A stretch of 64,000 nucleotides of DNA, taken from positions 2,500,843 to 2,564,842 of the forward strand of contig NZ_MQWB01000001.1 of NCBI RefSeq assembly GCF_002257665.1, read 5' to 3'. Under the pieces are notes generated by a model that saw only the letters and a program-made list of their open reading frames with translations, did no database searches and was not told the origin of the DNA. The stretch comes from Rubricoccus marinus (lineage in GTDB: Bacteria > Bacteroidota > Rhodothermia > Rhodothermales > Rubricoccaceae). The stretch's first letter is position 1. Every line of letters begins with the position of its first letter. Positions 21,693 to 33,468 of this stretch are shown piece after piece. The translations under genes were made by a program, and so were the position numbers.

Positions 21693-22622
21693 TCAGGGAC
21701 GCCCTAGAGCTTGGTGCACCGCAGGATGTAAGCCGCTTAGCGTGACCCGTAGCCGTTCCAATGATGCGGTCGCGTCGATGCGTAGGCGAGAAATCCGGAG
21801 AGGATCCGGTATCGGGCTCCGCGCCATACGGTGATCGAACAGAAACGCTGCTCGAAAGCCGCATGCTTCAGCTGCTTCTCGAACTCTAGGGTCATGGTCC
21901 CCATTGGGATACGCGAGCGCGCGCGGAGCATGGCCCAACACCTGAGCCAGCTCGCGCTGCGACGTAGCCAGTTCTTCTCGGATCGTATGTGTTGAGCACT
22001 CGTGGAGGCACGGGTGCGTCATCGTGTGGTTGCCGACTTCGACCCCGCTGCGCTCAAGTTCCACGAGTTCGGACCGACGTAACTGCAGCATCCGAGGCGC
22101 AGGCTCTCGCGCCGTACGCCTTAGCGATTCGATAGCAAGAAGGCGCTTCGAGTTCGAGATCCTCTTAAGCGTTCGAACCACCCCGAATGGGGACTCCCGA
22201 GGGTCGATAATGTCAGCCCGCCCCCCTCTGCGAACTAGGTCTTCGACTTCGTCCCACCAAAATGGCGCGTCTGTGTCTAATAGGCCGGCAACGACAAACG
22301 CTGCGGCTGGAATCTGCCTTTCAAGCAGGATCGGCGCGGCGACTTCTAGCACACTTCGGTCGCCGTCATCGAACGTTACCAGAACGGCGCGGGGGGGCAG
22401 CGGCGTCTTGTTCTCAATAGCGTGGATGATGTGGTCTAAGGAAACCGGGCGGCGAAGCTCGCGAACTAGGTCCATCTGGCGCGCAAACTGCGCGCCGTCT
22501 TCGACGCTATGGTACGCGAGAACAGCTAGGTCTCCCCGTGTCCGCCATCGGTGCGCGGCCTGGAACGGAGAGCGTGCAAGCGCGCTGTCGATCGTCTTCG
22601 ATAGTCTCGCAGATCCCATCAT
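21693..22622 (-). CDS. Polysaccharide deacetylase (NodB-fold)
   Basis: A ~309-residue carbohydrate esterase 4 protein, starting at the ATG at 22622 (MMGSARLSKTIDSAL), which overlaps the upstream sulfotransferase stop by 4 bp; an ATG at 22808 would overlap that gene by 190 bp. LAVLAYHSVEDG, AVLVTFDDGDRSV (catalytic Asp and metal Asp), VEVGNHTMTHPCLHE (metal His-x3-His) and ALAYPNGDHDPRV are the canonical motifs in order. No signal peptide is visible. It probably removes an N-acetyl group from a lipid-linked or nucleotide sugar. It lies in the motif-poor island and probably came with the two sulfotransferases. Confidence 0.87.
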   Translation of the reverse strand: MMGSARLSKTIDSALARSPFQAAHRWRTRGDLAVLAYHSVEDGAQFARQMDLVRELRRPVSLDHIIHAIENKTPLPPRAVLVTFDDGDRSVLEVAAPILLERQIPAAAFVVAGLLDTDAPFWWDEVEDLVRRGGRADIIDPRESPFGVVRTLKRISNSKRLLAIESLRRTAREPAPRMLQLRRSELVELERSGVEVGNHTMTHPCLHECSTHTIREELATSQRELAQVLGHAPRALAYPNGDHDPRVREAAEACGFRAAFLFDHRMARSPIPDPLRISRLRIDATASLERLRVTLSGLHPAVHQALGRP

Positions 22623-23488
22623 TGTACTCGTCCGCGGAGCCGGGCGAGCGCTTGCTGGCCCACGCGAAACGCGCGGGTCGCGTTGGAGTAAATAGCCCAC
22701 CCTGCCCTCGGCGGATTGATCATTGATGGCCTGTCGTACCCAAACCTCTCCCCCATGCGGAGCACGGCTTCGGAGGGTTGGTACCCAAAGCGGCTGTCCT
22801 CTCGCCACTTCTGGACGGACCGCGTGTGGAGCCTTGAATCTGGTTCTTGCCCAACACCCAGCGCGAATGCCACGAGAGAGTCGAGTTCGGCCGGATCCGA
22901 AGCGATGTCCTCGTACCGAACGACCCGTAGCGAGTCTCCCATGTCGTCCTTAAATCTCAACAGGTTTCCGTAAGCTCGGACCCACTCACGCTCTCTGACT
23001 TCGGGTACGTAGCGCCAGCGGCTCCACATTGAGTAGAGCGTGTCGACAGGGTTGCGCACAAGCCCGACAAAACGGAACTCCACGTCGCTCAGTTCGCAAG
23101 AGGCCCTCCGCATCAGCGAGAGCGCGGAGCGTGAGTGGAGGTGATGCGGTGACTTTTCGAACAGCGCAGGCGCATATGCTTCGCACAACGCCCGCCACCC
23201 ATCCAACACAAGCGCCTCATGATCTGAAGGAATGGAAAAACCAGGAACGTTTTCCCTCAGGAGATACTCTAGTTCCGCCCGCGCACGGCTCCGGGTATAC
23301 GGGACGTCACGGCTATACCGCATGGCAGGTTGTTCCATCTCCAATACGGCAGCCGCTTTCATCCAGTATAGCGTCTCCTCCTCCATATGCGGAGTACTGC
23401 CTAGCGTCCGCGCACCAGCGCGAAGAAACTCACGCTGAACGGCGCTGGAGCCGGAGGACTTATCTGATAGGAGGATTATGGAGGTCAT
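22619..23488 (-). CDS. Sulfotransferase family protein
   Basis: A 289-residue sulfotransferase-like protein. The start SIILLSDKSSGSSAVQREFL (residues 3-22) is the 5'-phosphosulfate loop, and VEFRFVGLVRNPVDTLYSMWSRW (about 138-160) carries the 3'-phosphate-binding Arg and Ser. LRVVRYEDIASDPAELDSLVAFAL is the conserved third element. It is coupled by 4-bp overlaps to the deacetylase downstream and to the GT8 gene upstream (23485-23488). With the sulfotransferase at 20.9 kb it predicts sulfate esters on the glycan. No motif copies are present. Confidence 0.83.
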   Translation of the reverse strand: MTSIILLSDKSSGSSAVQREFLRAGARTLGSTPHMEEETLYWMKAAAVLEMEQPAMRYSRDVPYTRSRARAELEYLLRENVPGFSIPSDHEALVLDGWRALCEAYAPALFEKSPHHLHSRSALSLMRRASCELSDVEFRFVGLVRNPVDTLYSMWSRWRYVPEVREREWVRAYGNLLRFKDDMGDSLRVVRYEDIASDPAELDSLVAFALGVGQEPDSRLHTRSVQKWREDSRFGYQPSEAVLRMGERFGYDRPSMINPPRAGWAIYSNATRAFRVGQQALARLRGRVQ

Positions 23489-24307
23489 ACTGCGGACGAG
23501 GCGGTCTCAATACGCATGGAGGCGTCGGCACTCTTCCACAATGCTATTTCCTCCTTAAACCTCCACCGCAGCAACCTGTCTTTGGCGTGGAGATACACCT
23601 TTGAGGAGGTCTTCTCCACGAGGAGACCACGCCCAATTGCCCAAGGCTTTATTTTAGTGAAATGCATAAATTTAACGCCGCTTTTCATAATATCACTATA
23701 CATTTTCTTGTTTATATGTTTGTTTGAGATAATAAGATTCCACTTGGGATGAAGACACTCAACTGGAACACTATCGTCATTAAGATATTTGTTTATGACA
23801 GCCTGATCAGCAAAGTGACCAAACCTCATACCCCTCAACGTTTTTACTAAATTGCCAAACGTTTCCTTACATGGCCGCAACACCATAACGCCCGTGTTAA
23901 ACATCATCCTTTGACCCACAGACGCCCCTACATTTTGCCCGTAATCTGGAGCCATTGCCCAAGGCTCGATATGTTCGAGAGGGCGCAGATCTCCAAGACA
24001 CAACATATCAGCGTCTAGGTATACTAATTTTTCGTACTCGTCAAGGCCGAACAGGTAAAGCTTGTTCATATTGAACATCTTTTTTGCATTAAGACCAGTC
24101 CCGGCCCCCAAACCATCCAACTTGTCCAGGTTTATAACCCTAACCCCGGGTAACTGTCTGAGAGTACTCTCATTATTTGCAGACAGCCCACGAGAAAGTA
24201 CGACGAGCTTGAAACTTTCTAGCTGAGAGTTATATATTATACTTTTGTACAGACATAATATACCTGGAAAAAAACAGATCATTCGTATAACTAGCGAACG
24301 TAATCAT
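23485..24307 (-). CDS. GT8-family glycosyltransferase interrupted by a frameshift in a T7 tract
   Basis: The frame from 24282 to 23485 encodes a GT8 transferase body: PGILCLYKSIIYNS, KLVYLDADMLCLGDL (DxD motif binding Mn and donor), FNTGVMVLRPC, FADQAVINKYL and VKFMHFTKIKPW. It lacks the family's first beta strand. That strand, MITFASYTNDLFF, lies just upstream in another frame, starting at an ATG at 24307 that overlaps the previous gene's TAA (TAATG). The two frames meet in a run of seven T (24274-24268 on the minus strand); six T would give one continuous ~273-residue protein. As written, the coupled start yields a ~24-residue peptide. The cause may be phase variation, a recent mutation or a sequence error. 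The gene is AT-rich and has no motif copies. Confidence 0.75.
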
Positions 24308-25500
24308 TACTTTTTACCCCCACTGCTCTGCAGAGTTGCCCGATTCGGTTCCTCCGCCACTATGCCTATATGCGCAGGCCTAGTATGTAAGGCCTCTGAC
24401 GTCACTACGGCGAAGTTCGGGAGCTGAACGTTCATCCTCAGGTAGTCGTACACGTCTTCGATCCCAGGCCGTATAGCCTCTGGCATATACGGAAACGCAA
24501 TGTCGAGAGCGAGAACATCGCATCTTCCACCGAAGAGCATGGCAGCATTCGGCAGGAATGAGGAGTAGAACCCGATCACGTGGCGGGGAACGACCCCACG
24601 GTGCGCGAGGGCGACCTCCAACGCCTCTGGCGGCCGCCACGTCCTGCATCCTAGTGCAGACTCAATAGCCGCGATGACGCTCGCGCTTTCTTTCCCATGG
24701 GGGACGTAGGTGATGGGGGTACGGGCCCATTCCTGAATGCCCTCAAGGTGTGTAATGTAGTCATCAAGGTCTATCCAACCGTAGTCGACGTATGGCCCCC
24801 CAATGATGAGCGCCTCATTTGCGGTCGTCACAGACCTGAGTTTCGCCCCCAGAACGGAGTACTCATTGTGTCGGAGTGTCCACGACGGGGGTAGATCTAC
24901 GTCGTAAATGGTGAACAGCGTTCCACGTGTGGGGTACCGCGTATCCAGCCGCAAGCCTTTTTCTACCACTCTGGCCAAGACACTTTGTATGGGTTGGTCT
25001 CGGAGCCGCTGGGCAACGACGATGGTAGCCGTCCCGTCATCGATCAATACCAACTCGGCAGGGTCGAGCGCGTTGGCGACATGGCGGAGCCTACGGTCCA
25101 AGATGTTACCGAGAACTAAGCGTCCGCCCTTTAGGTCTGGTGGCAGCAACTGCGCGAACATCCGGACGTGGTCAACCGTTCGGCTCGCTCGGCCTAAGGC
25201 AGAGCGGCCGAGCCACCGGCTCAGCCTCCCGATGTCCCTTCCGTAGGAATACCACCGCACGTCCCCCCACGGTTCTTTGGGTTCCCCAAGCCGTATGCGC
25301 ATCGCCTCTGGCGCTACGAGGAGGGAGGACTCGAAGGAGAACCCAAGCGAGGCCGCGGCCTCTACGACGTTGATGTACTGCATGCGCGTAGACGCGATGC
25401 AGACCGTCTCGAACTGAAGGGGGGGGGAGATAGGCAACGGTTTCAAAGGGGCAACTCGGGTACGGAAGAGATCACCACGCGGTCCACCCTCCGTCCACAA
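24307..25500 (-). CDS. Polysialyltransferase-like glycosyltransferase
   Basis: A 397-residue protein resembling the bacterial alpha-2,8-polysialyltransferase/CMP-sialic acid-using families. ETVCIASTRMQYINVVEAA (31-49) is the first strand and helix, LVLIDDGTATIVV a central loop, TPITYVPHGKES the conserved H-G-K/CMP-site-like segment, and HVIGFYSSFLPNAAMLFG the last conserved block. It directly follows the CMP-legionaminate genes, so transfer of legionaminic acid from CMP-Leg is a strong contextual inference. The family call is mine, by pattern only. It overlaps the SDR gene upstream by 29 bp, and its TAA overlaps the ATG of the GT8 gene. Three motif copies mark it as more resident than the island below. 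Confidence 0.62.
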   Translation of the reverse strand: MWTEGGPRGDLFRTRVAPLKPLPISPPLQFETVCIASTRMQYINVVEAAASLGFSFESSLLVAPEAMRIRLGEPKEPWGDVRWYSYGRDIGRLSRWLGRSALGRASRTVDHVRMFAQLLPPDLKGGRLVLGNILDRRLRHVANALDPAELVLIDDGTATIVVAQRLRDQPIQSVLARVVEKGLRLDTRYPTRGTLFTIYDVDLPPSWTLRHNEYSVLGAKLRSVTTANEALIIGGPYVDYGWIDLDDYITHLEGIQEWARTPITYVPHGKESASVIAAIESALGCRTWRPPEALEVALAHRGVVPRHVIGFYSSFLPNAAMLFGGRCDVLALDIAFPYMPEAIRPGIEDVYDYLRMNVQLPNFAVVTSEALHTRPAHIGIVAEEPNRATLQSSGGKK

Positions 25501-26296
25501 TCAGATTTTGACCCGTCACGTAGCTGGAAGCGTCTGAGCATAGATAGATCAGCGCCCCTACCATCTCTTCCGGCCTACCCATCCGGCCCATCGGCGTTCG
25601 CGCCGCGTAGTTCGATGTGAAGGCCTCGTTCTGACCGCTTTCCACCCCTCCAGGCGTGAGGGAGTTCACGCGGATGCCATGCTGCGCCCACGTCGTCGCG
25701 AGGTAGCGAGTCAGGGACACTACGCCCCCTTTCGACGCCGCGTACACCGCCGGAGTGTTGATCTCTTGCCCGAGGTATTGGGACCCCTCATAGATCCGGC
25801 TATCTGGCCCTACCACCCCGTAGATAGACGCCGTTTGCACGATGGCTCCGCCGGCCCCCTGCGCTATCATCTGGCGGCCAACGGCGCGGGCCATCCAGAA
25901 CAAACCGTCCAGGTTGACGCTCATGATCTTTCTCCACTCCTCTACTGCGTAATCCTCCGTCGGCGCGAAAAATGCTTCTAAGTCGTTAGACTTTGACGCA
26001 GCATTGTTATGGAGGATGTCAACGCGTCCTAACTCGCTCGCTACGAGTCGAACCGTGTCGTCCACGGCGGCAGGGTCACTCACATCACAGCCCACCCCTA
26101 CCGTTCGGACACCGAAACGCTCCCGCAGAGAATGAGCCGCCTCAATGGCGGCTTCCTCCTGAAGATCGACCACCGCCACTGATGCGCCGTATTCAGCGAG
26201 GCCTGCGCAAAAGTGCGTACCGAGCAACCCGCTCCCGCCGGTTACGAGTGCCACTTTGCCGGTCAGGTCGAATAGTCCTCGATAAGATTCAGTCAT
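25472..26296 (-). CDS. ptmA: SDR-family oxidoreductase (PtmA-like)
   Basis: A classical short-chain dehydrogenase of ~274 residues from the ATG at 26296 (MTESYRGLFDLTGKVALVT); the ATG at 26362 would overlap legF further. TGGSGLLGTHFC is the NAD(P) glycine motif, DILHNNAAS the NNAG-like motif, and TASIYG with YAASKGG the catalytic Ser and Tyr-x3-Lys, with an insert (about YEGSQYLGQEINTP) between them. YVTGQNLIVDGGW closes the domain. Position and likeness match C. jejuni PtmA (Cj1332), required for legionaminate-modified flagella and thought to help supply the amino-sugar precursor. The exact reaction is not settled. Confidence 0.85.
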   Translation of the reverse strand: MTESYRGLFDLTGKVALVTGGSGLLGTHFCAGLAEYGASVAVVDLQEEAAIEAAHSLRERFGVRTVGVGCDVSDPAAVDDTVRLVASELGRVDILHNNAASKSNDLEAFFAPTEDYAVEEWRKIMSVNLDGLFWMARAVGRQMIAQGAGGAIVQTASIYGVVGPDSRIYEGSQYLGQEINTPAVYAASKGGVVSLTRYLATTWAQHGIRVNSLTPGGVESGQNEAFTSNYAARTPMGRMGRPEEMVGALIYLCSDASSYVTGQNLIVDGGWTAW

Positions 26297-26999
26297 AGCT
26301 GCGGGTATCTCTCGACTCGTAAAGAAAGCGGACCCACTCTGCATCAAGCGGCGAATCGACATCTACGGACCGCTCTTCAGGCATTTCGTACAGTAGCGTG
26401 TCTGGGTTGAAGGGAGACTGCCAGTTTGTTAGCCCCTCGCGCGTCCATACGTACACAGAAGCGTTCATGTCGAAGCAGGCCGGAGCGTCCTGCCGGCGAC
26501 TAACGGACGAATCTAAACGCTTGCTCAGTTGCACGTGCCCGGCAGCGTCCAACTCGACGAGGTTGAAATATGGAGACCGACGAGCAGGCATCGCCGTAAT
26601 GACTTGAGAAACACCCCGGGTTTCAAGAAGGCCGACGGCGCCAACAATGTCAGCAGGGACACGCAGCGGTGAGGTTGCATCCAAGTCTACAAGCGTGTCG
26701 TAGTGCATGCCGGTCTCTGCTTCTGCCGTTTGCACAGCGTGCTGGATAACAGGGACTTTGGGCGCGCGGTCGGTAGCGAGATGACCCGGCCGCTTGATGA
26801 TTACCTCGGCACCCCACTCCGAAGCGACTTGGAGGATCGCTTCTGAATCGCTGCTCACTGCTACGACTCCGAACAAGCCACTGGCGAGCGCCTGCTCGAT
26901 AGAGTGCGCCAGGAGAGGCTTCCCTCCTAGATCCATGAGGTTCTTTCCCTCAACGCCTTTCGAGCCGCCTCTGGCGCAGATAGTACAAAGTCTAGTCAT
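26289..26999 (-). CDS. legF: CMP-legionaminic/sialic acid synthetase (LegF/PtmB-like)
   Basis: A 236-residue cytidylyltransferase that activates a nonulosonic acid with CTP. CTICARGGSKGVEGKNL (5-21) is the CTP-binding signature (R-G-G-S-K), then KPLLAHSIEQAL, VVAVSSDSEAIL, RPGHLATDRAPKVPVIQHAV and TLVDLDATSPLRVPADI, with the metal-binding Asp. VDVDSPLDAEWVRFL ends it. It belongs to the NeuA/LegF/PtmB group. The neighbouring LegI/LegG/PtmE genes make CMP-legionaminate the most likely product; CMP-Neu5Ac cannot be excluded by sequence alone. It overlaps ptmF-like by 4 bp. Confidence 0.92.
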   Translation of the reverse strand: MTRLCTICARGGSKGVEGKNLMDLGGKPLLAHSIEQALASGLFGVVAVSSDSEAILQVASEWGAEVIIKRPGHLATDRAPKVPVIQHAVQTAEAETGMHYDTLVDLDATSPLRVPADIVGAVGLLETRGVSQVITAMPARRSPYFNLVELDAAGHVQLSKRLDSSVSRRQDAPACFDMNASVYVWTREGLTNWQSPFNPDTLLYEMPEERSVDVDSPLDAEWVRFLYESRDTRSYD

Positions 27000-27922
27000 C
27001 GGCTAGGGATCGGCGCGGGCGCGCTCAGTGAGAGGGGACGTAGCGAGGACTCTACTTCAGCGACAAGGTCCAGCACGTCAAGGGCTTCTTCTGCCGTGCA
27101 GGCATCCCCACCTCCTGCCAAGATCGCCGCGTGTTGGGCACGGTACGTGTCGTCCCGACCTACTTCGAACAGAGTCCTCACGCCGTCCTCTTGGATATAC
27201 CCCTCCGTAAGGTTGAGTTCAAGTGTACGGGCGTCTGTGTTAACCAGTACGGAACGGCGCCCTACGCGGTCGAGGTAATTGAGGTGGACGGTCGCCACCG
27301 GGCACTTCTCGAACGAAGCCAAAATCCCTACGGCGTCCTCGGTATTGATTTCCAAAGAGCTAAGGTGGCCGCCGCGCGCTTCAGCTTGCTTCCACCCCCC
27401 CAGGATCCAGTTGAGATAGTCCAACTCGTGACTAAGGTCCCGAAGCACCCCCCCGCCCTCCTCCTTCCGCGCGGAGTACGTGGTGCGGTAGTCCCGATTC
27501 GGGCGCCACAATGGGAGGTAGTGACCTACATACGCCTGCACCGATAGAACGCGCTCGCCACGAAGCCGCTGGCGTAAGTGCTGGACGCCCGGATGGAAGC
27601 GGAGGTTGTACGCGACGTAGCACGCACTGAACCCGTTCGGCGGGAAAGAGCCAGGCTGGTTGAATAGAGGCTTTTCTACGAGGAGAACGCCCTCGAATCC
27701 ACAGGTTACGAGTTCCTTGACGGTCCGCCGATGCTCCTCCGTCCGGTTGGCGATAACGACGTACTCCGGATGGTGCTCGCGGATGGCTTGTGAGAGCGCG
27801 CCGTATCGACGGGAAACGTCGACCGGCCTTCGGCTCACGACGCCTACATCGTGACCATCCTCTTCGAGGATGCGAGTATGCCGCGCTCCGATAGAGCCGT
27901 ACCCCACGACGAGCGCCCTCAT
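26996..27922 (-). CDS. ptmF: Gfo/Idh/MocA-family oxidoreductase (PtmF-like)
   Basis: A 308-residue NAD(P)-dependent oxidoreductase. ALVVGYGSIGARHTRIL (3-19) is the dinucleotide-binding loop, VLLVEKPLFNQPG carries the conserved E-K-P motif, and GGGVLRDLSHELDYLNWILG contains the D-x3-H-type catalytic residues of the family. It sits between PtmE-like and LegF genes with 4-bp overlaps on both sides, the same order as Cj1329-Cj1331. It is thought to work with PtmA on glucosamine supply for legionaminic acid; the true substrate is not established. Confidence 0.86.
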   Translation of the reverse strand: MRALVVGYGSIGARHTRILEEDGHDVGVVSRRPVDVSRRYGALSQAIREHHPEYVVIANRTEEHRRTVKELVTCGFEGVLLVEKPLFNQPGSFPPNGFSACYVAYNLRFHPGVQHLRQRLRGERVLSVQAYVGHYLPLWRPNRDYRTTYSARKEEGGGVLRDLSHELDYLNWILGGWKQAEARGGHLSSLEINTEDAVGILASFEKCPVATVHLNYLDRVGRRSVLVNTDARTLELNLTEGYIQEDGVRTLFEVGRDDTYRAQHAAILAGGGDACTAEEALDVLDLVAEVESSLRPLSLSAPAPIPSR

Positions 27923-28968
27923 GCGAACACCTCATCGAAGTGCCCATTCGCGCGGTGAAAATCCTCCGGCTGGCCAATGTCCATCCAGTACTCCCGGATT
28001 GGGAACGCCGCGACGGACCTCTGCTCGCTGATCAGTTGAGTGAAGAGGTCTGGCATATCGAACCTCTCGCCGGTCGGAATTAGCGACAGCGCGCTGGGAT
28101 CTAGCACGTAGACGCCGCCATTGACGAGGTACCGCTCGGTCGGCTTTTCGCGGATATCCACGATGGAGTGCTCCTCGATATCGATCACTCCGTAGGGCAC
28201 CTGCATTTCGTACTCCCGAACGCACATTGTAGCGGCGGCTCCGTTTTGTGTGTGGAAATCCAAGAGTTGGGCGAAGTTGAGCCGTGTGAGGAGATCTCCG
28301 TTCATGACGAAGAAAGGCGCCTCTGGCGTCTCCGGCAAAAGCGAGAGCGCGCCGGCGGTGCCGAGGCGCTGCTTCTCGCGGAGGTACTCGATCTGAACTC
28401 CCCACTGGCTCCCGTCCCCAAAGTGCTCCTCGACCTGCTCGGCGAGGTAGTTCACCGAGAGGTAGAACCGGCTGAACCCGTGGCTAGCGAACGCTTCAAG
28501 GATGGTCTGAAGGATGGGCTTGGGCCCTACGCGAAGCAGCGGCTTCGGGGTGTCGTTGGTTAGCGGCCGGAGCCGGGTCCCGAGCCCCCCGGCCATCAGG
28601 ACGACAGCGTTGGGCTTTGGCTCGGGGCTTAAGAGGTCGTCCAATACCTCAAGGCCAACCACACGCCCCCGGAGGTCCACGCGGGGGATTTGGTGGAGCC
28701 GCTTCCGGCGCATCAGCGCGAGGAGCGCGTCCGGGTCGTCGCTCTCCTTCGCCGTCGTCGGGTTCTGGTTCGTAGCGCCTGCAACGTCGTCGTCGAGCGA
28801 TACCCCGCTTAGGATCGCACGGCGGACGTCGCCGTCGGTCACGGTTCCGAGAAGCCGCCCCTCATCGTCAACGACGAGGGCGATCTGGAGCGCCGCGGCA
28901 TCGATCACGCGGACGGCCTCGCGGACGGTCGCCTTCGGGCTGATGAGGGTTTGTTTCCAGTCTCGCAT
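27919..28968 (-). CDS. ptmE: CBS-domain glucosamine-1-phosphate guanylyltransferase (PtmE-like)
   Basis: A 349-residue protein with two CBS motifs at the N-terminus (VIDAAALQIALVVDDEGRLLGTVTDGDVRRAIL and ALMRRKRLHQIPRVDLRGRVVGLEVLDDL, about 22-115) and a nucleotidyltransferase domain from residue ~118. The latter has VVLMAGGLGTRLRPLTND, the K-P lysine in TPKPLLRVG, FFVMNGDLLTRL and GVYVLDPSAL. This CBS-transferase architecture is characteristic of PtmE, which makes GDP-glucosamine and so commits to the GDP-linked legionaminate route. It has 4-bp overlap with ptmF. The ~43-bp spacer before it holds one motif copy. Confidence 0.9.
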   Translation of the reverse strand: MRDWKQTLISPKATVREAVRVIDAAALQIALVVDDEGRLLGTVTDGDVRRAILSGVSLDDDVAGATNQNPTTAKESDDPDALLALMRRKRLHQIPRVDLRGRVVGLEVLDDLLSPEPKPNAVVLMAGGLGTRLRPLTNDTPKPLLRVGPKPILQTILEAFASHGFSRFYLSVNYLAEQVEEHFGDGSQWGVQIEYLREKQRLGTAGALSLLPETPEAPFFVMNGDLLTRLNFAQLLDFHTQNGAAATMCVREYEMQVPYGVIDIEEHSIVDIREKPTERYLVNGGVYVLDPSALSLIPTGERFDMPDLFTQLISEQRSVAAFPIREYWMDIGQPEDFHRANGHFDEVFA

Positions 28969-29011
28969 AGGTCAGAGGGGAGAGCTACAGGGTACGCCCT
29001 CGCCAGAGGCT

Positions 29012-30094
29012 CTACTTGTAAAACCGGATGGGTTCGTCCGCGGCGAAGTCGCGGGAGACCTCGCGGCCTACGGCTTCCCAGAAATCCATGGGAGAGATCC
29101 CCCCGCCCGGACGCTTCGTCGTGATGGCCTCCTCGGTCAGCACCTCGCCTCTGGCGAGGGGACGGGCGGCGACGATGCTCTTACGCACGACGGAGACGTT
29201 TTTGGCCTCTACCGCCGTGGGCCGTTTGCCCGGCTTGCCAAGAGCAAGAGCGGTCTCACGGATCCCCTGCACCATCGCGGCGAGCTCGCCGGGTTCTAGC
29301 GAGGCGGCGTGGTCCGGGCCGGGCAGCGTGCGGTCCAAGGTGAAGTGCTTCTCGATGACCGTTGCGCCGAGCGCCGCCGCGGCTACGGGGACCGTGATGC
29401 CCTCTGTGTGGTCGGAGTAGCCCACCGGCAGACCGAAGGCGTGCCGGAGCGTCCCCATCGCGCGGAGGTTGACCTCCGCCAGAGGCGCGGGGTATTCCGT
29501 GGTGCAGTGCAGCAGCGTGACGTGCTCACGCAGGGCGGCTTGGCCCTCGCCAGAGGCGAAGGCGTGGCGGAACGCCTCGCGCGAGGGCGCAGCCGCCTCT
29601 GGCGCCGAGAGCCCGAAGGCGATCACGCCGAGGGCGTCCTCGACGTCGCCGAGCGTGCACATTCCCGTCGAGACGAAAAGCGGGAGCCTCTGGCGGGCGA
29701 CGCGGAGCAGGAGCGGCGCGTTGGTGACCTCGCCTGAGGGGACCTTCAGGCGAGGCACGCCCAGCTCGCGGACGAGGAGGTCCACGCTAGCCAGGTCGAA
29801 CGGCGTAGACAGGAACTCAATGCCGTGCTGCCGGCACGCCTCTTGGATTCGCTCGTGGGCGCCACGGTCGAGTTCCAGCTTCCGGACCATCTCCAGCTGC
29901 GACTCCGCCGAGCCCGTCGTGGCGGTTTGGTAGGCCGCCTTCGGAGCCGAGGCGCTGACGATCGCGTCGGCCCTGAAGGTCTGGAACTTCACGGCGTCGG
30001 CGCCCGCTCGCGCGGCCGCCTCCACGAGTTCGATCGCGCGGTCTACGGACCCGTTGTGGTTGACGCCAGCTTCAGCGATGATGTACACGCTCAC
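29012..30094 (-). CDS. legI: N,N'-diacetyllegionaminate synthase (NeuB family)
   Basis: A 360-residue NeuB-type synthase that condenses phosphoenolpyruvate with 2,4-diacetamido-2,4,6-trideoxymannose. YIIAEAGVNHNGSVDRA opens the TIM barrel, AVKFQTF, EFLSTPFDLASVDLL, LFVSTGMCTLGDVEDAL, YSDHTEG and VIEKHFTLDRTLPGPDH follow, and residues ~295-360 are the SAF domain (VRKSIVAARPLARGEVLTEE). It overlaps legG by 4 bp. It is a stand-alone enzyme, unlike the fused synthase at 9.4-11.2 kb, so the two probably serve different sugars. Many motif copies (29.1-29.7 kb) encode ASG- and PEA-type tripeptides within variable loops. Confidence 0.92.
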   Translation of the reverse strand: MSVYIIAEAGVNHNGSVDRAIELVEAAARAGADAVKFQTFRADAIVSASAPKAAYQTATTGSAESQLEMVRKLELDRGAHERIQEACRQHGIEFLSTPFDLASVDLLVRELGVPRLKVPSGEVTNAPLLLRVARQRLPLFVSTGMCTLGDVEDALGVIAFGLSAPEAAAPSREAFRHAFASGEGQAALREHVTLLHCTTEYPAPLAEVNLRAMGTLRHAFGLPVGYSDHTEGITVPVAAAALGATVIEKHFTLDRTLPGPDHAASLEPGELAAMVQGIRETALALGKPGKRPTAVEAKNVSVVRKSIVAARPLARGEVLTEEAITTKRPGGGISPMDFWEAVGREVSRDFAADEPIRFYK

Positions 30095-31263
30095 GGGTGG
30101 TGGGGGAGGTCGTAGAACGGACGGGCGAGGACCCCCTCGCCCAGGGGGAGCGTGCGGAGGTGCTCGACGATGGCGCCAGAGGCCCCGCCTCCCCCGTATG
30201 GGGAGCGCACGGTGGCGAGCCGCGCCTGCACCTCGTCTCCGAGCGCTTGGCGGATCGCGGCTTCGATGGCGTCGGCGTTCTCGGCGCAGTCGAGGACCGA
30301 TTCGGCCCGGGGCCGGCCTTTTTGCCGGTCGCCGATGTTCACCGTCGGGACACCGAACGACGGCGCCTCGGTAATGCCGCTCGACGAGTTGCCGATCACG
30401 GCGCTGACGTGGCGGAGCGCGCTGAGGTAGCGAATTTGCCCGAGGGAGTCGACTAGCTTTACGGAGTCCGGGCGGGCATCGGCGTACGCCTGTAGCAGTT
30501 CATTGACGCGCCTCCCGTCGGTGTCCGCGTTGCTCTTCGTGATAAGGACGTGCGCGTCGGGGAAGCGGTCGAGCGCCTTTGTGAGCGCGGCGACGGGCGC
30601 CTCCACGCCGCCAGAGGCGAGCGTCGCGGGGTGGTAGGTGACCAGGAAGGCGGGCGCAGCGAGGGAGAACCCGCCGAGCGAGGCCTCTAAGTCTTCGCGC
30701 GAGAGCGCCTCGGTTTGGAGCACGTGGTCCAACCCCGGCGCCCCCACGTTGAACACCCGCTCCGGCGACTCGCCGAGTTGGATCACGCGGCGCCGGAAGT
30801 CCTTGGTCGCGGTGAAGTGGTACGTCGCCATCTTGCTCACGCTGTGGCGGATGGCCTCGTCGAAGGCGCCCTCGGTTGTTTCGCCGCCGTGAATGTGCGC
30901 GATGGGAATTTTCGCGACGAGTGCTGCCTGCGCCGCAGCGAGAACCTCGAACCGGTCGCCCAGCACGACGACGACGTCCGGTGCCAGCCGCGCGAACGCG
31001 TCGGCGAATCCGATCACGCCCAAGCCGATAGATTTCGCGACGCCCACCGCCGTGTCGCTGGAGAGCAGGGATTCCACGCGCTCTGAGATCGTAAAGCCGT
31101 CGGCCTCAATGGTGCCCGCTGTGGCCCCGAACTCCGGCGAGAGGTGCATCCCCGTCGCGGCGATCTGAAGGTCGAGCTCCGGAGCATCGGCGATGCCCCG
31201 GAGCACCCAGTACATCAGCCCGTATTCCGCCCTTGAACCCGTGACGACGCACACTTTACGCAT
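30091..31263 (-). CDS. legG: Hydrolysing nucleotide-sugar 2-epimerase (NeuC/LegG-like)
   Basis: A 390-residue GT-B-fold hydrolysing 2-epimerase. VCVVTGSRAEYGLM (4-17) is the NeuC hallmark, then DVVVVLGDRFEVLAAAQAAL, IAHIHGGETTEGAFDEAIRH, FNVGAPGLDHVL, ALRHVSAVIGNSSSGITEAP and PTVNIGDRQKGRPRAESV. In the GDP-linked pathway the enzyme removes GDP and inverts C2, giving 2,4-diacetamido-2,4,6-trideoxymannose for LegI. Overlaps of 4 bp with legI and 8 bp with legC show tight coupling. By sequence alone UDP-GlcNAc epimerase (NeuC) is the alternative, but the LegB and LegC neighbours favour LegG. Confidence 0.9.
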   Translation of the reverse strand: MRKVCVVTGSRAEYGLMYWVLRGIADAPELDLQIAATGMHLSPEFGATAGTIEADGFTISERVESLLSSDTAVGVAKSIGLGVIGFADAFARLAPDVVVVLGDRFEVLAAAQAALVAKIPIAHIHGGETTEGAFDEAIRHSVSKMATYHFTATKDFRRRVIQLGESPERVFNVGAPGLDHVLQTEALSREDLEASLGGFSLAAPAFLVTYHPATLASGGVEAPVAALTKALDRFPDAHVLITKSNADTDGRRVNELLQAYADARPDSVKLVDSLGQIRYLSALRHVSAVIGNSSSGITEAPSFGVPTVNIGDRQKGRPRAESVLDCAENADAIEAAIRQALGDEVQARLATVRSPYGGGGASGAIVEHLRTLPLGEGVLARPFYDLPHHP

Positions 31264-32470
31264 GGTCCGACACCAAGAACGCGCTGCTAGGGATGTTGAT
31301 TAGCCGCCGCACGATGCCCCTGGCGACGGAGAGGTCCATCGACGGGGAGCCCGCGTACATCGGGAGGCTGGACATCAGCGACCAGACGGGCCGCGTCATG
31401 ATCCCGGCGTCGTTGGTGGCGGCGAGGACTGCGTCGCGCTCATCCTCCCGGCCTCTGGCGAGCAAGAGTGCGCCCAACCAGTAGTTGCTCGTGCTCTCCG
31501 GTGGCTCCTCCACGAACTGGACATCCTTCACGCCCGCGAACGCCTCGGAGTAGCGCGAGGCGAGCTCCCGCTTGGAAGCCAAGAACCCGTCCAGCTGCTC
31601 CACCTGCGCGCACCCCAGCGCGGCGTTGATGTTGGGCAACCGGTAGTTGTACCCCACGTGGTCGTGGTGGTAAGCCCATCGGTGGGGTTGCTTCGCCGTC
31701 GTAGTGAGGTGCTTGGCGAGGTCCGCCAGAGCCTCGTCGTCGGTGATAAGCGCGCCGCCGCCGCCGGTCGTAATGGTCTTGTTGCCGTTGAAGCTCAGCG
31801 TCCCCACGCGCCCGATGCGGCCGGTGTGCACGCCGCGGTACATCGAGCCCAAAGATTCCGCCGCGTCCTCCACGAGCGCGATGCCGTACCGCTCGCAGAC
31901 TTCCGCCAGAGGCCCGAGCCGGACGGGGTGCCCGAACGTGTGCATCGGCACGGCGGCGCGAATCACGCGGCCCGTCTGGCGGTTGACGCACGCGCCATCG
32001 CGCACCTCCGCGATCCCGGCGAGGTAGTCCTCGAGCGCGTCCGGGTCCATCCCCAACGTGGCCTCCTCGCTGTCGGCGAAGTGCGGCGTGGCGCCGCAGT
32101 ACGCTACGGCGTTCGCCGTGGCTACAAACGTCAGCGCAGGGATCAGCACCTCGTCGCCCCGCTCAACGCCCACCAAGCGGAGCGCGACGTGGAGTGCCGC
32201 CGTCCCGTTGACGACCGCCACCGCTCGCCGCGCGCCCGTCACCTCGGCGAGCATCTGCTCAAACCGGTCGACGTACTTCCCCGCCGACGACACCCACCCG
32301 GTGTCGATGCACTCCTTAACGTACTCCCACTCGTTGCCGGCGAACCTTGGCTCGTGCAACGGGACGAACGCCTCTGGCGAGCCGAGGACGCCCTGGAGCG
32401 TTTCTAGGACGTCGCCCGCCAGGGATCCTCTGGCGCCAGAGGCGGGGCGCTGGACGGGGGCGGCGCTCAT
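31256..32470 (-). CDS. legC: LegC-like PLP aminotransferase
   Basis: A ~404-residue DegT/DnrJ aminotransferase that makes the 4-amino sugar from the LegB product. FVPLHEPRFAGNEWEYVKECIDTGWVSSAGK is shared with LegC proteins. AVAVVNGTAALHVAL is the phosphate loop, VEDAAESLGSMY holds the PLP-binding Asp, and LSFNGNKTITTGGGG the Schiff-base lysine. The start at 32470 overlaps legB by 4 bp. The first ~25 residues, before the conserved block, contain an in-frame motif palindrome (32427-32442, read as ASGARG) and look like an extension absent from the usual family N-terminus. All key residues are present. Confidence 0.91.
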   Translation of the reverse strand: MSAAPVQRPASGARGSLAGDVLETLQGVLGSPEAFVPLHEPRFAGNEWEYVKECIDTGWVSSAGKYVDRFEQMLAEVTGARRAVAVVNGTAALHVALRLVGVERGDEVLIPALTFVATANAVAYCGATPHFADSEEATLGMDPDALEDYLAGIAEVRDGACVNRQTGRVIRAAVPMHTFGHPVRLGPLAEVCERYGIALVEDAAESLGSMYRGVHTGRIGRVGTLSFNGNKTITTGGGGALITDDEALADLAKHLTTTAKQPHRWAYHHDHVGYNYRLPNINAALGCAQVEQLDGFLASKRELASRYSEAFAGVKDVQFVEEPPESTSNYWLGALLLARGREDERDAVLAATNDAGIMTRPVWSLMSSLPMYAGSPSMDLSVARGIVRRLINIPSSAFLVSDHA

Positions 32471-33468
32471 ACGTTGTAGACCTCGGCCTTGTACCGACGG
32501 AGGTTCTCCTTGTGCGTGAACCACTCCGCCGTCTCGGCGAGGCCGCGCCGGAGCCCCTCGCGGGAGCCGTACTCCGGTCGCCAGCCGAGCAGTTCCGCCG
32601 CCTTCTCGTTCGACGCCAGGAGCCGCTCCACTTCACTCTTCTCGGGGCGCATCCGCTCCTCGTCGGTCACGACCTCCACCTCCACCCCCATCGCCTCCGC
32701 GATGACGTGCACTAGGTCGCCGATCGAGATCTCGAACCCACTCCCCACGTTGATAACCTCTCCGATCCCCGCGTCGGTCTCCGCCGCTGCGATGAACCCT
32801 CGGACGGTGTCCGCGACGAAGTTGAAATCCCGTGTCGGGTGCAATGCGCCGAGTTTGATCCTCCGCTTGCCGCTGGCGATCTGCGTGATGATTGTCGGAA
32901 TCACCGCGCGGGCCGACTGCCGCGGGCCGTAGGTGTTGAACGGGCGCAGGAGGGTTACGGGCGTGTCGAACGAGGCGTAGAATGAGTACGCGATCTGGTC
33001 GGCGCCGATCTTCGACGCGGAGTACGGCGATTGCCCTTGCAGCGGGTGCTCCTCGGAGATGGGCACGAACTGCGCTGTCCCGTACACCTCGCTCGTCGAC
33101 GTGTGCACCACACGCTCCACGCCGAGGTCCCGCGCCGCCTGCATGACGTTGAGCGTTCCCTTCACGTTCGTGTCCACGTACGTGTCTGGGGAGTGGTACG
33201 AGTACGGGATCGCGATAAGCGCCGCGAGGTGGAGCACGACGTCGCACCCCTCCATCGCCTTCCGCACGCCGTTGGGATCGCGCACGTCCCCGGCGAACAC
33301 GTCCAGCTTGGCCTGCACGTCGGCGTCGAGGTCGTCCAGCCACCCCCACGAACCGAAGGAGTTGTACAGCACGAACGGGCGCACGTCATATCCTCTCTCG
33401 ACAAGGGCCTCGACGAGGTGCGAGCCGATGAACCCGTCAGCGCCGGTTACAAGAATCTTTTTAGCCAT
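32467..33468 (-). CDS. legB: GDP-N-acetylglucosamine 4,6-dehydratase (LegB-like)
   Basis: A 333-residue extended SDR dehydratase. KILVTGADGFIGSHLVEAL (4-22) binds NAD(P). VDTNVKGTLNVMQAAR, HTSTSEVYGTAQ (Thr-Ser and the dehydratase-type Glu), and YSASKIGADQIA (catalytic Tyr-x3-Lys) are all present. The C-terminal end (SREGLRRGLAETAEWF) matches LegB-like proteins. It starts the legionaminate gene run; the spacer to the ABC transporter gene upstream is only 17 bp. It would convert GDP-GlcNAc to the 4-keto-6-deoxy sugar. A UDP-linked substrate (PglF or capsular homologues) is less likely given PtmE. Confidence 0.9.
   Translation of the reverse strand: MAKKILVTGADGFIGSHLVEALVERGYDVRPFVLYNSFGSWGWLDDLDADVQAKLDVFAGDVRDPNGVRKAMEGCDVVLHLAALIAIPYSYHSPDTYVDTNVKGTLNVMQAARDLGVERVVHTSTSEVYGTAQFVPISEEHPLQGQSPYSASKIGADQIAYSFYASFDTPVTLLRPFNTYGPRQSARAVIPTIITQIASGKRRIKLGALHPTRDFNFVADTVRGFIAAAETDAGIGEVINVGSGFEISIGDLVHVIAEAMGVEVEVVTDEERMRPEKSEVERLLASNEKAAELLGWRPEYGSREGLRRGLAETAEWFTHKENLRRYKAEVYNV

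Follow-up and report, generated by a model that had tools for sequence, protein, structure and literature searches.

In Neisseria, lgtC encodes a galactosyltransferase of glycosyltransferase family 8 (GT8) that is phase variable by a poly-G tract, and a survey of the Neisseria phasome used tract cut-offs of 11 for T and 9 for G (PMC5953494). Runs of seven bases can also switch or vary. One-base indels in a 7C run reversibly inactivate glpK of M. tuberculosis, with variants observed in populations (PMC9765434), and a one-base loss from A7 to A6 truncates the inlA product in natural isolates of L. monocytogenes, a change seen at least two times in populations (PMC2831843). For slippage by E. coli RNA polymerase, the reported rescue was about 5% at T7, absent below T7, and 10% (deletion rescue) at T8 (PMC6260861); in general, runs show selection against slippage once they reach nine A/T (PMC1088944).

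The gene described here lies in a 64,000-nucleotide stretch of the Rubricoccus marinus genome (the window) and carries a run of seven T. Like lgtC, it has the GT8 fold (1g9r and 1ss9 are among the fold matches) and a homopolymer inside a surface-glycan glycosyltransferase gene; unlike lgtC, it has T7 instead of poly-G, is 18-20% identical to it, and is known from one sequence, with a single tract length. With glpK it has in common a 7-base run at which a one-base indel would reversibly inactivate the gene, and with inlA a 7-base A/T run at which a one-base change truncates the protein. It differs from the former in base and from both in being seen in a single genome, and the inlA change is a loss, not a gain. 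The best match in both sequence and fold is glycogenin-1, another GT8 member, which is however a eukaryotic self-glucosylating enzyme of about 25% identity, whose function is not transferable to this gene.

A GT8 gene split by one surplus T

The positions of the split gene and of the features around it are collected in Table 1.

Table 1. Features of the GT8 locus and its surroundings, in window positions
Feature	Position	Strand	Remarks
Sulfotransferase-like gene (following)	22619..23488	-	overlaps GT8 stop by 4 bases; PF13469 below cut-off
Remainder of GT8 gene	23485..24282	-	shifted frame, open; 265 aa from internal ATG
GT8 N-terminal piece	24230..24307	-	13 genuine GT8 codons (MITFASYTNDLFF), 12 out-of-frame codons, stop
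T7 run carrying the frameshift	24268..24274	- (A7 on +)	
Polysialyltransferase-like gene (preceding)	24307..25446	-	probable TTG start 25446; one base in common with GT8 start
C9 run (G9 on +)	25419..25427	-	in polysialyltransferase-like gene, after its probable TTG start and before strand 1; now in frame
Nonulosonic (legionaminic-type) acid synthesis genes	25472..33468	-	

Rereading of the sequence found the T7 run, and the ATG at 24307 overlapping the preceding stop, where an earlier note on this DNA had placed them; the preceding open reading frame ends at 24307, and its TAA has one A in common with the GT8 ATG. Minus-strand translation from this ATG gives MITFASYTNDLFFSRYIMSVQKYNI and then a stop, so the early termination proposed in that note stands, the exact count being 25 codons and not about 24. 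Six T join the two frames, as had been claimed, and the T6 reading is a GT8 protein of 273 residues. When tract length was varied, T9 likewise gave a long product (274 residues), whereas T4, T5, T7, T8, and T10 gave 22-26 codons; the homopolymer thus lies inside the coding part and sets an ON or OFF frame. This T7 is the sole A/T run of at least seven within the 64 kb window. A programmed -1 ribosomal shift at the tract was considered and rejected, as it goes in the wrong direction and leads into the same frame as T8, which closes after 23 codons.

The downstream part is intact. The T6 reading scored 52.2 bits against PF01501 (cut-off, 24.3), and the downstream open reading frame alone scored 51. 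All the GT8 motifs examined there are preserved (DxD, FNTG, DQ, and HFTKIKPW), and YLDAD (D98, D100) and HFTKIKPW (H215, P221, W222) are invariant or nearly so among relatives. The marks of glycosyltransferase family 8, namely a PF01501 match and a DxD together with a C-terminal HxxxxKPW, are therefore both present, and the split gene is the single PF01501 match in the genome. That 260 downstream codons have stayed open with all conserved motifs indicates either a recent break or a gene still in use.

The codons upstream of the tract were then scored with a profile built from 38 distant GT8 relatives. Joining the first 13 residues in the T6 reading raised the score from 111.0 to 121.5 bits, a value that none of 2,000 random peptides reached (13 codons each, drawn stop-free from the window; mean, 111.9; maximum, 119.6), with a slight bias in favor of the test because the relatives were retrieved with queries that included the N-terminus. 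The alignment query used for this test returned 56 and 11 distant relatives. Strand 1 is carried by 38 of 57 relatives, which is every relative aligned over the N-terminal region, and there it mostly lies a few residues past the start. By phmmer, residues 7-224 of the T6 reading aligned with glycogenin, YTND standing opposite TTND; in glycogenin the TTND strand contacts uridine. An AlphaFold2 model of the read-through protein, computed with 24 relatives, gave residues E2-8 as a strand (pLDDT about 93), with the tract at the boundary between a loop and helix 1 (residues 12-13), and its fold matches were headed by glycogenin, followed by LgtC and other GT8 enzymes. Profile, alignment, and model back the earlier proposal that the upstream piece is the missing strand 1, and on this evidence the upstream codons truly belong to the GT8 enzyme. 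The proposed split by a single surplus T was borne out as well, both pieces making up one GT8 domain. The strand is encoded one base out of frame and comes into frame only when the tract is read as T6; by descent the locus is thus a GT8 gene, but in its present form it does not encode an intact GT8 enzyme.

Close orthologues were not found in protein scans of genome contigs and viral contigs. Matches reached only 24-29% identity in about 490 genomes of the phylum and 23-25% in plasmids, and none above about 30% appeared in the genome, viral, or plasmid scans; the gene is missing from the same-genus and same-family genomes examined. A GT8-like protein with an N-terminus (YITYSCSDSYIPGIVALYKSL) among those most similar to the window's GT8 is encoded on metagenomic viral contigs of IMG/VR (L203:465-1160; also L204-L207).

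Gene neighborhood and homopolymer runs

The GT8 gene has 43% G+C in a window of mostly 57-70%, and was therefore probably acquired. The gene preceding it gave a weak PF07388 match below the cut-off and has distant homologues in the phylum; downstream lie sulfotransferase-like and deacetylase genes. The nonulosonic acid genes comprise an SDR, a CMP-transferase (PseF-like), an oxidoreductase, a CBS-nucleotidyltransferase, NeuB, NeuC, LegC, and LegB. The pathway looks complete, with the CBS-domain nucleotidyltransferase included, and the PseF-like cytidylyltransferase scores below its equivalog cut-off.

Reshuffling of synonymous codons in the GT8 gene produced T6 at the tract site in 35% of cases and T7 anywhere in 14%, T6 at the site following from two TTT codons. 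Codon choice by itself thus suffices to explain the tract, without selection. Among 24 distant homologues, runs of at least seven occurred in 4, at differing places and of differing bases, and a tract shared at the GT8 site was found in none, a weak comparison given how remote these homologues are. The 4.43 Mb genome holds 46 isolated A7/T7 runs. Of 44 that were inspected, the majority lie between genes, as would be expected of terminators, and the idea of A7/T7 runs as a general theme was dropped on this ground.

The C9 run in the preceding gene was examined likewise. The only usable starts upstream of it are TTG 25446, TTG 25437, and the more distant TTG 25500, all of which a one-base change in C9 would put out of frame; one homologue of the polysialyltransferase-like protein starts just before strand 1, without the C9 stretch (L221). 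The length of the run equals the Neisseria cut-off of 9 for G (PMC5953494). Runs of nine are about as frequent in this genome as run-length decay predicts, which leaves C9 as a candidate only, though a somewhat better one for phase variation than T7. That the C9 and T7 genes are switched independently, giving a four-state surface glycan despite working mismatch repair, is a long shot. C/G runs of at least nine as surface-gene switches in general were discarded, the coding ones lying in various, mostly non-surface genes and being in frame. C11/G11 runs number five in the genome against roughly 0.3 extrapolated from run-length decay, with none longer (L047:7730-7740, L051:5079-5089, L055:4950-4960, L056:5123-5133, and L057:4744-4754). 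Four of the five are intergenic, each no more than about 55 bases from a predicted start codon on one or the other strand; they are possible length-variable upstream tracts.

Origin of the seventh T

We give a little better than an even chance to a genuine, recent T6-to-T7 insertion that leaves the GT8 of the nonulosonic-acid surface-glycan cluster OFF or barely expressed. The second-ranking account, which we consider unlikely, is a sequencing or assembly error, the true tract being T6 and GT8 intact. A single homopolymer indel is a classic error, and the GT8 motifs are otherwise perfectly conserved. The assembly, however, has contigs of 300, 349, 355, and 403 bases alongside one of 3.95 Mb and, judged from these sizes only, looks like a product of short reads, which are rarely wrong at seven T. 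Longer homopolymers also argue against error: the genome has 13 separate C/G runs of 9-11, and the seven located in coding open reading frames outside the window are all in frame. Furthermore, a codon-based frameshift decoder, which detected 37 of 60 injected indels and is poor on the low-GC GT8 gene itself, made 6 interior frameshift calls in 0.92 Mb, none of them lying 40 bases or less from a run of at least six. With 0.92 Mb sampled, the resulting 6.5 calls per Mb are the lowest of the genomes compared (16-152 in three relatives), which rules against a generally error-prone assembly. Homopolymer error is thus not the default explanation in this genome, and a base-calling error at T7 is possible but not favored. 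The same decoder made about 150 calls per Mb in a same-genus genome (G001, L067-L086), so that its gene calls need to be used with caution.

The earlier note had raised the possibility that slippage at the T run switches GT8 on and off and varies the surface glycan. An evolved phase switch, with slippage between T6 and T7 toggling GT8 in part of the population, we regard as improbable. The genome carries MutS- and MutL-type genes whose reading frames are long and open, whereas M. tuberculosis, to our knowledge, has neither. The tract does fall within 40 bases of the start of a GT8 gene for a surface glycan, with the C9 run close to the start of the adjacent gene; glpK switches by a run of only seven (PMC9765434), A/T runs of 5-8 bases prefer the 5' ends of genes (PMC2831843), and lgtC, itself a GT8 gene, is listed as phase variable (PMC5953494). 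Against this, T7 falls far below the usual hypermutable length (11 for T, 9 for G; PMC5953494), the 24 relatives, remote as they are, do not conserve the tract, and T6 at this site is what codon choice alone would bring in a third of reshuffles. With so short a run, mismatch repair genes present, no common tract, and codon choice sufficing, the proposal is left unsupported; phase variation through T7 is unproven and not favored, and the run does not look like a dedicated switch. From one sequence, a fixed mutation or pseudogene and a reversible OFF state look alike.

Two further accounts were weighed. In one, which is hardly probable, the run is tolerated and slippage by RNA polymerase or the ribosome supplies enough full-length GT8, either through a +1 shift at UUU UCC or through U7 transcripts that have lost a U. 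T7 sits at the detection limit for slippage (PMC6260861, PMC1088944). The rescue of about 5% by E. coli polymerase at T7 (PMC6260861) speaks for it, as does the open downstream frame, which partial expression would preserve; yet counter-selection generally sets in only from nine A/T (PMC1088944), and the required shift is +1, the commoner one being -1. In the other, the internal ATG at 24282 is the true start and the 265-residue protein is functional. The frame from 24282 is open and its product still passes PF01501, but that product would be without strand 1, which all relatives aligned there carry, and the upstream codons match GT8 above chance and encode a confidently modelled strand; we hold this account to be very improbable.

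Possible consequences for the surface glycan

Taken together, a real, recent, and in principle reversible knock-out is the most likely explanation. A one-base insertion would have turned T6 into T7 in a short homopolymer of the GT8 gene; translation would then end after 25 codons, so that most transcripts would yield no full GT8. The break would be revertible by ordinary slippage, and transcripts losing one U may still provide a small amount of full-length protein. Loss of the sugar step would alter the surface glycan. We infer, accordingly with this preferred reading, that T7 is present in the organism's DNA, that GT8 was recently turned off, and that the surface glycan has changed.

If T7 is real, it would be an error to annotate the gene as an intact GT8 that starts at the internal ATG, and this strain's glycan would be without the sugar added by its sole PF01501 enzyme. 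If T7 does not vary, the locus would represent a routine frameshift of a kind often found in glycan clusters; should its length differ among cells of the population, a short A/T run would here serve as a switch in a genome of high G+C with mismatch-repair genes.
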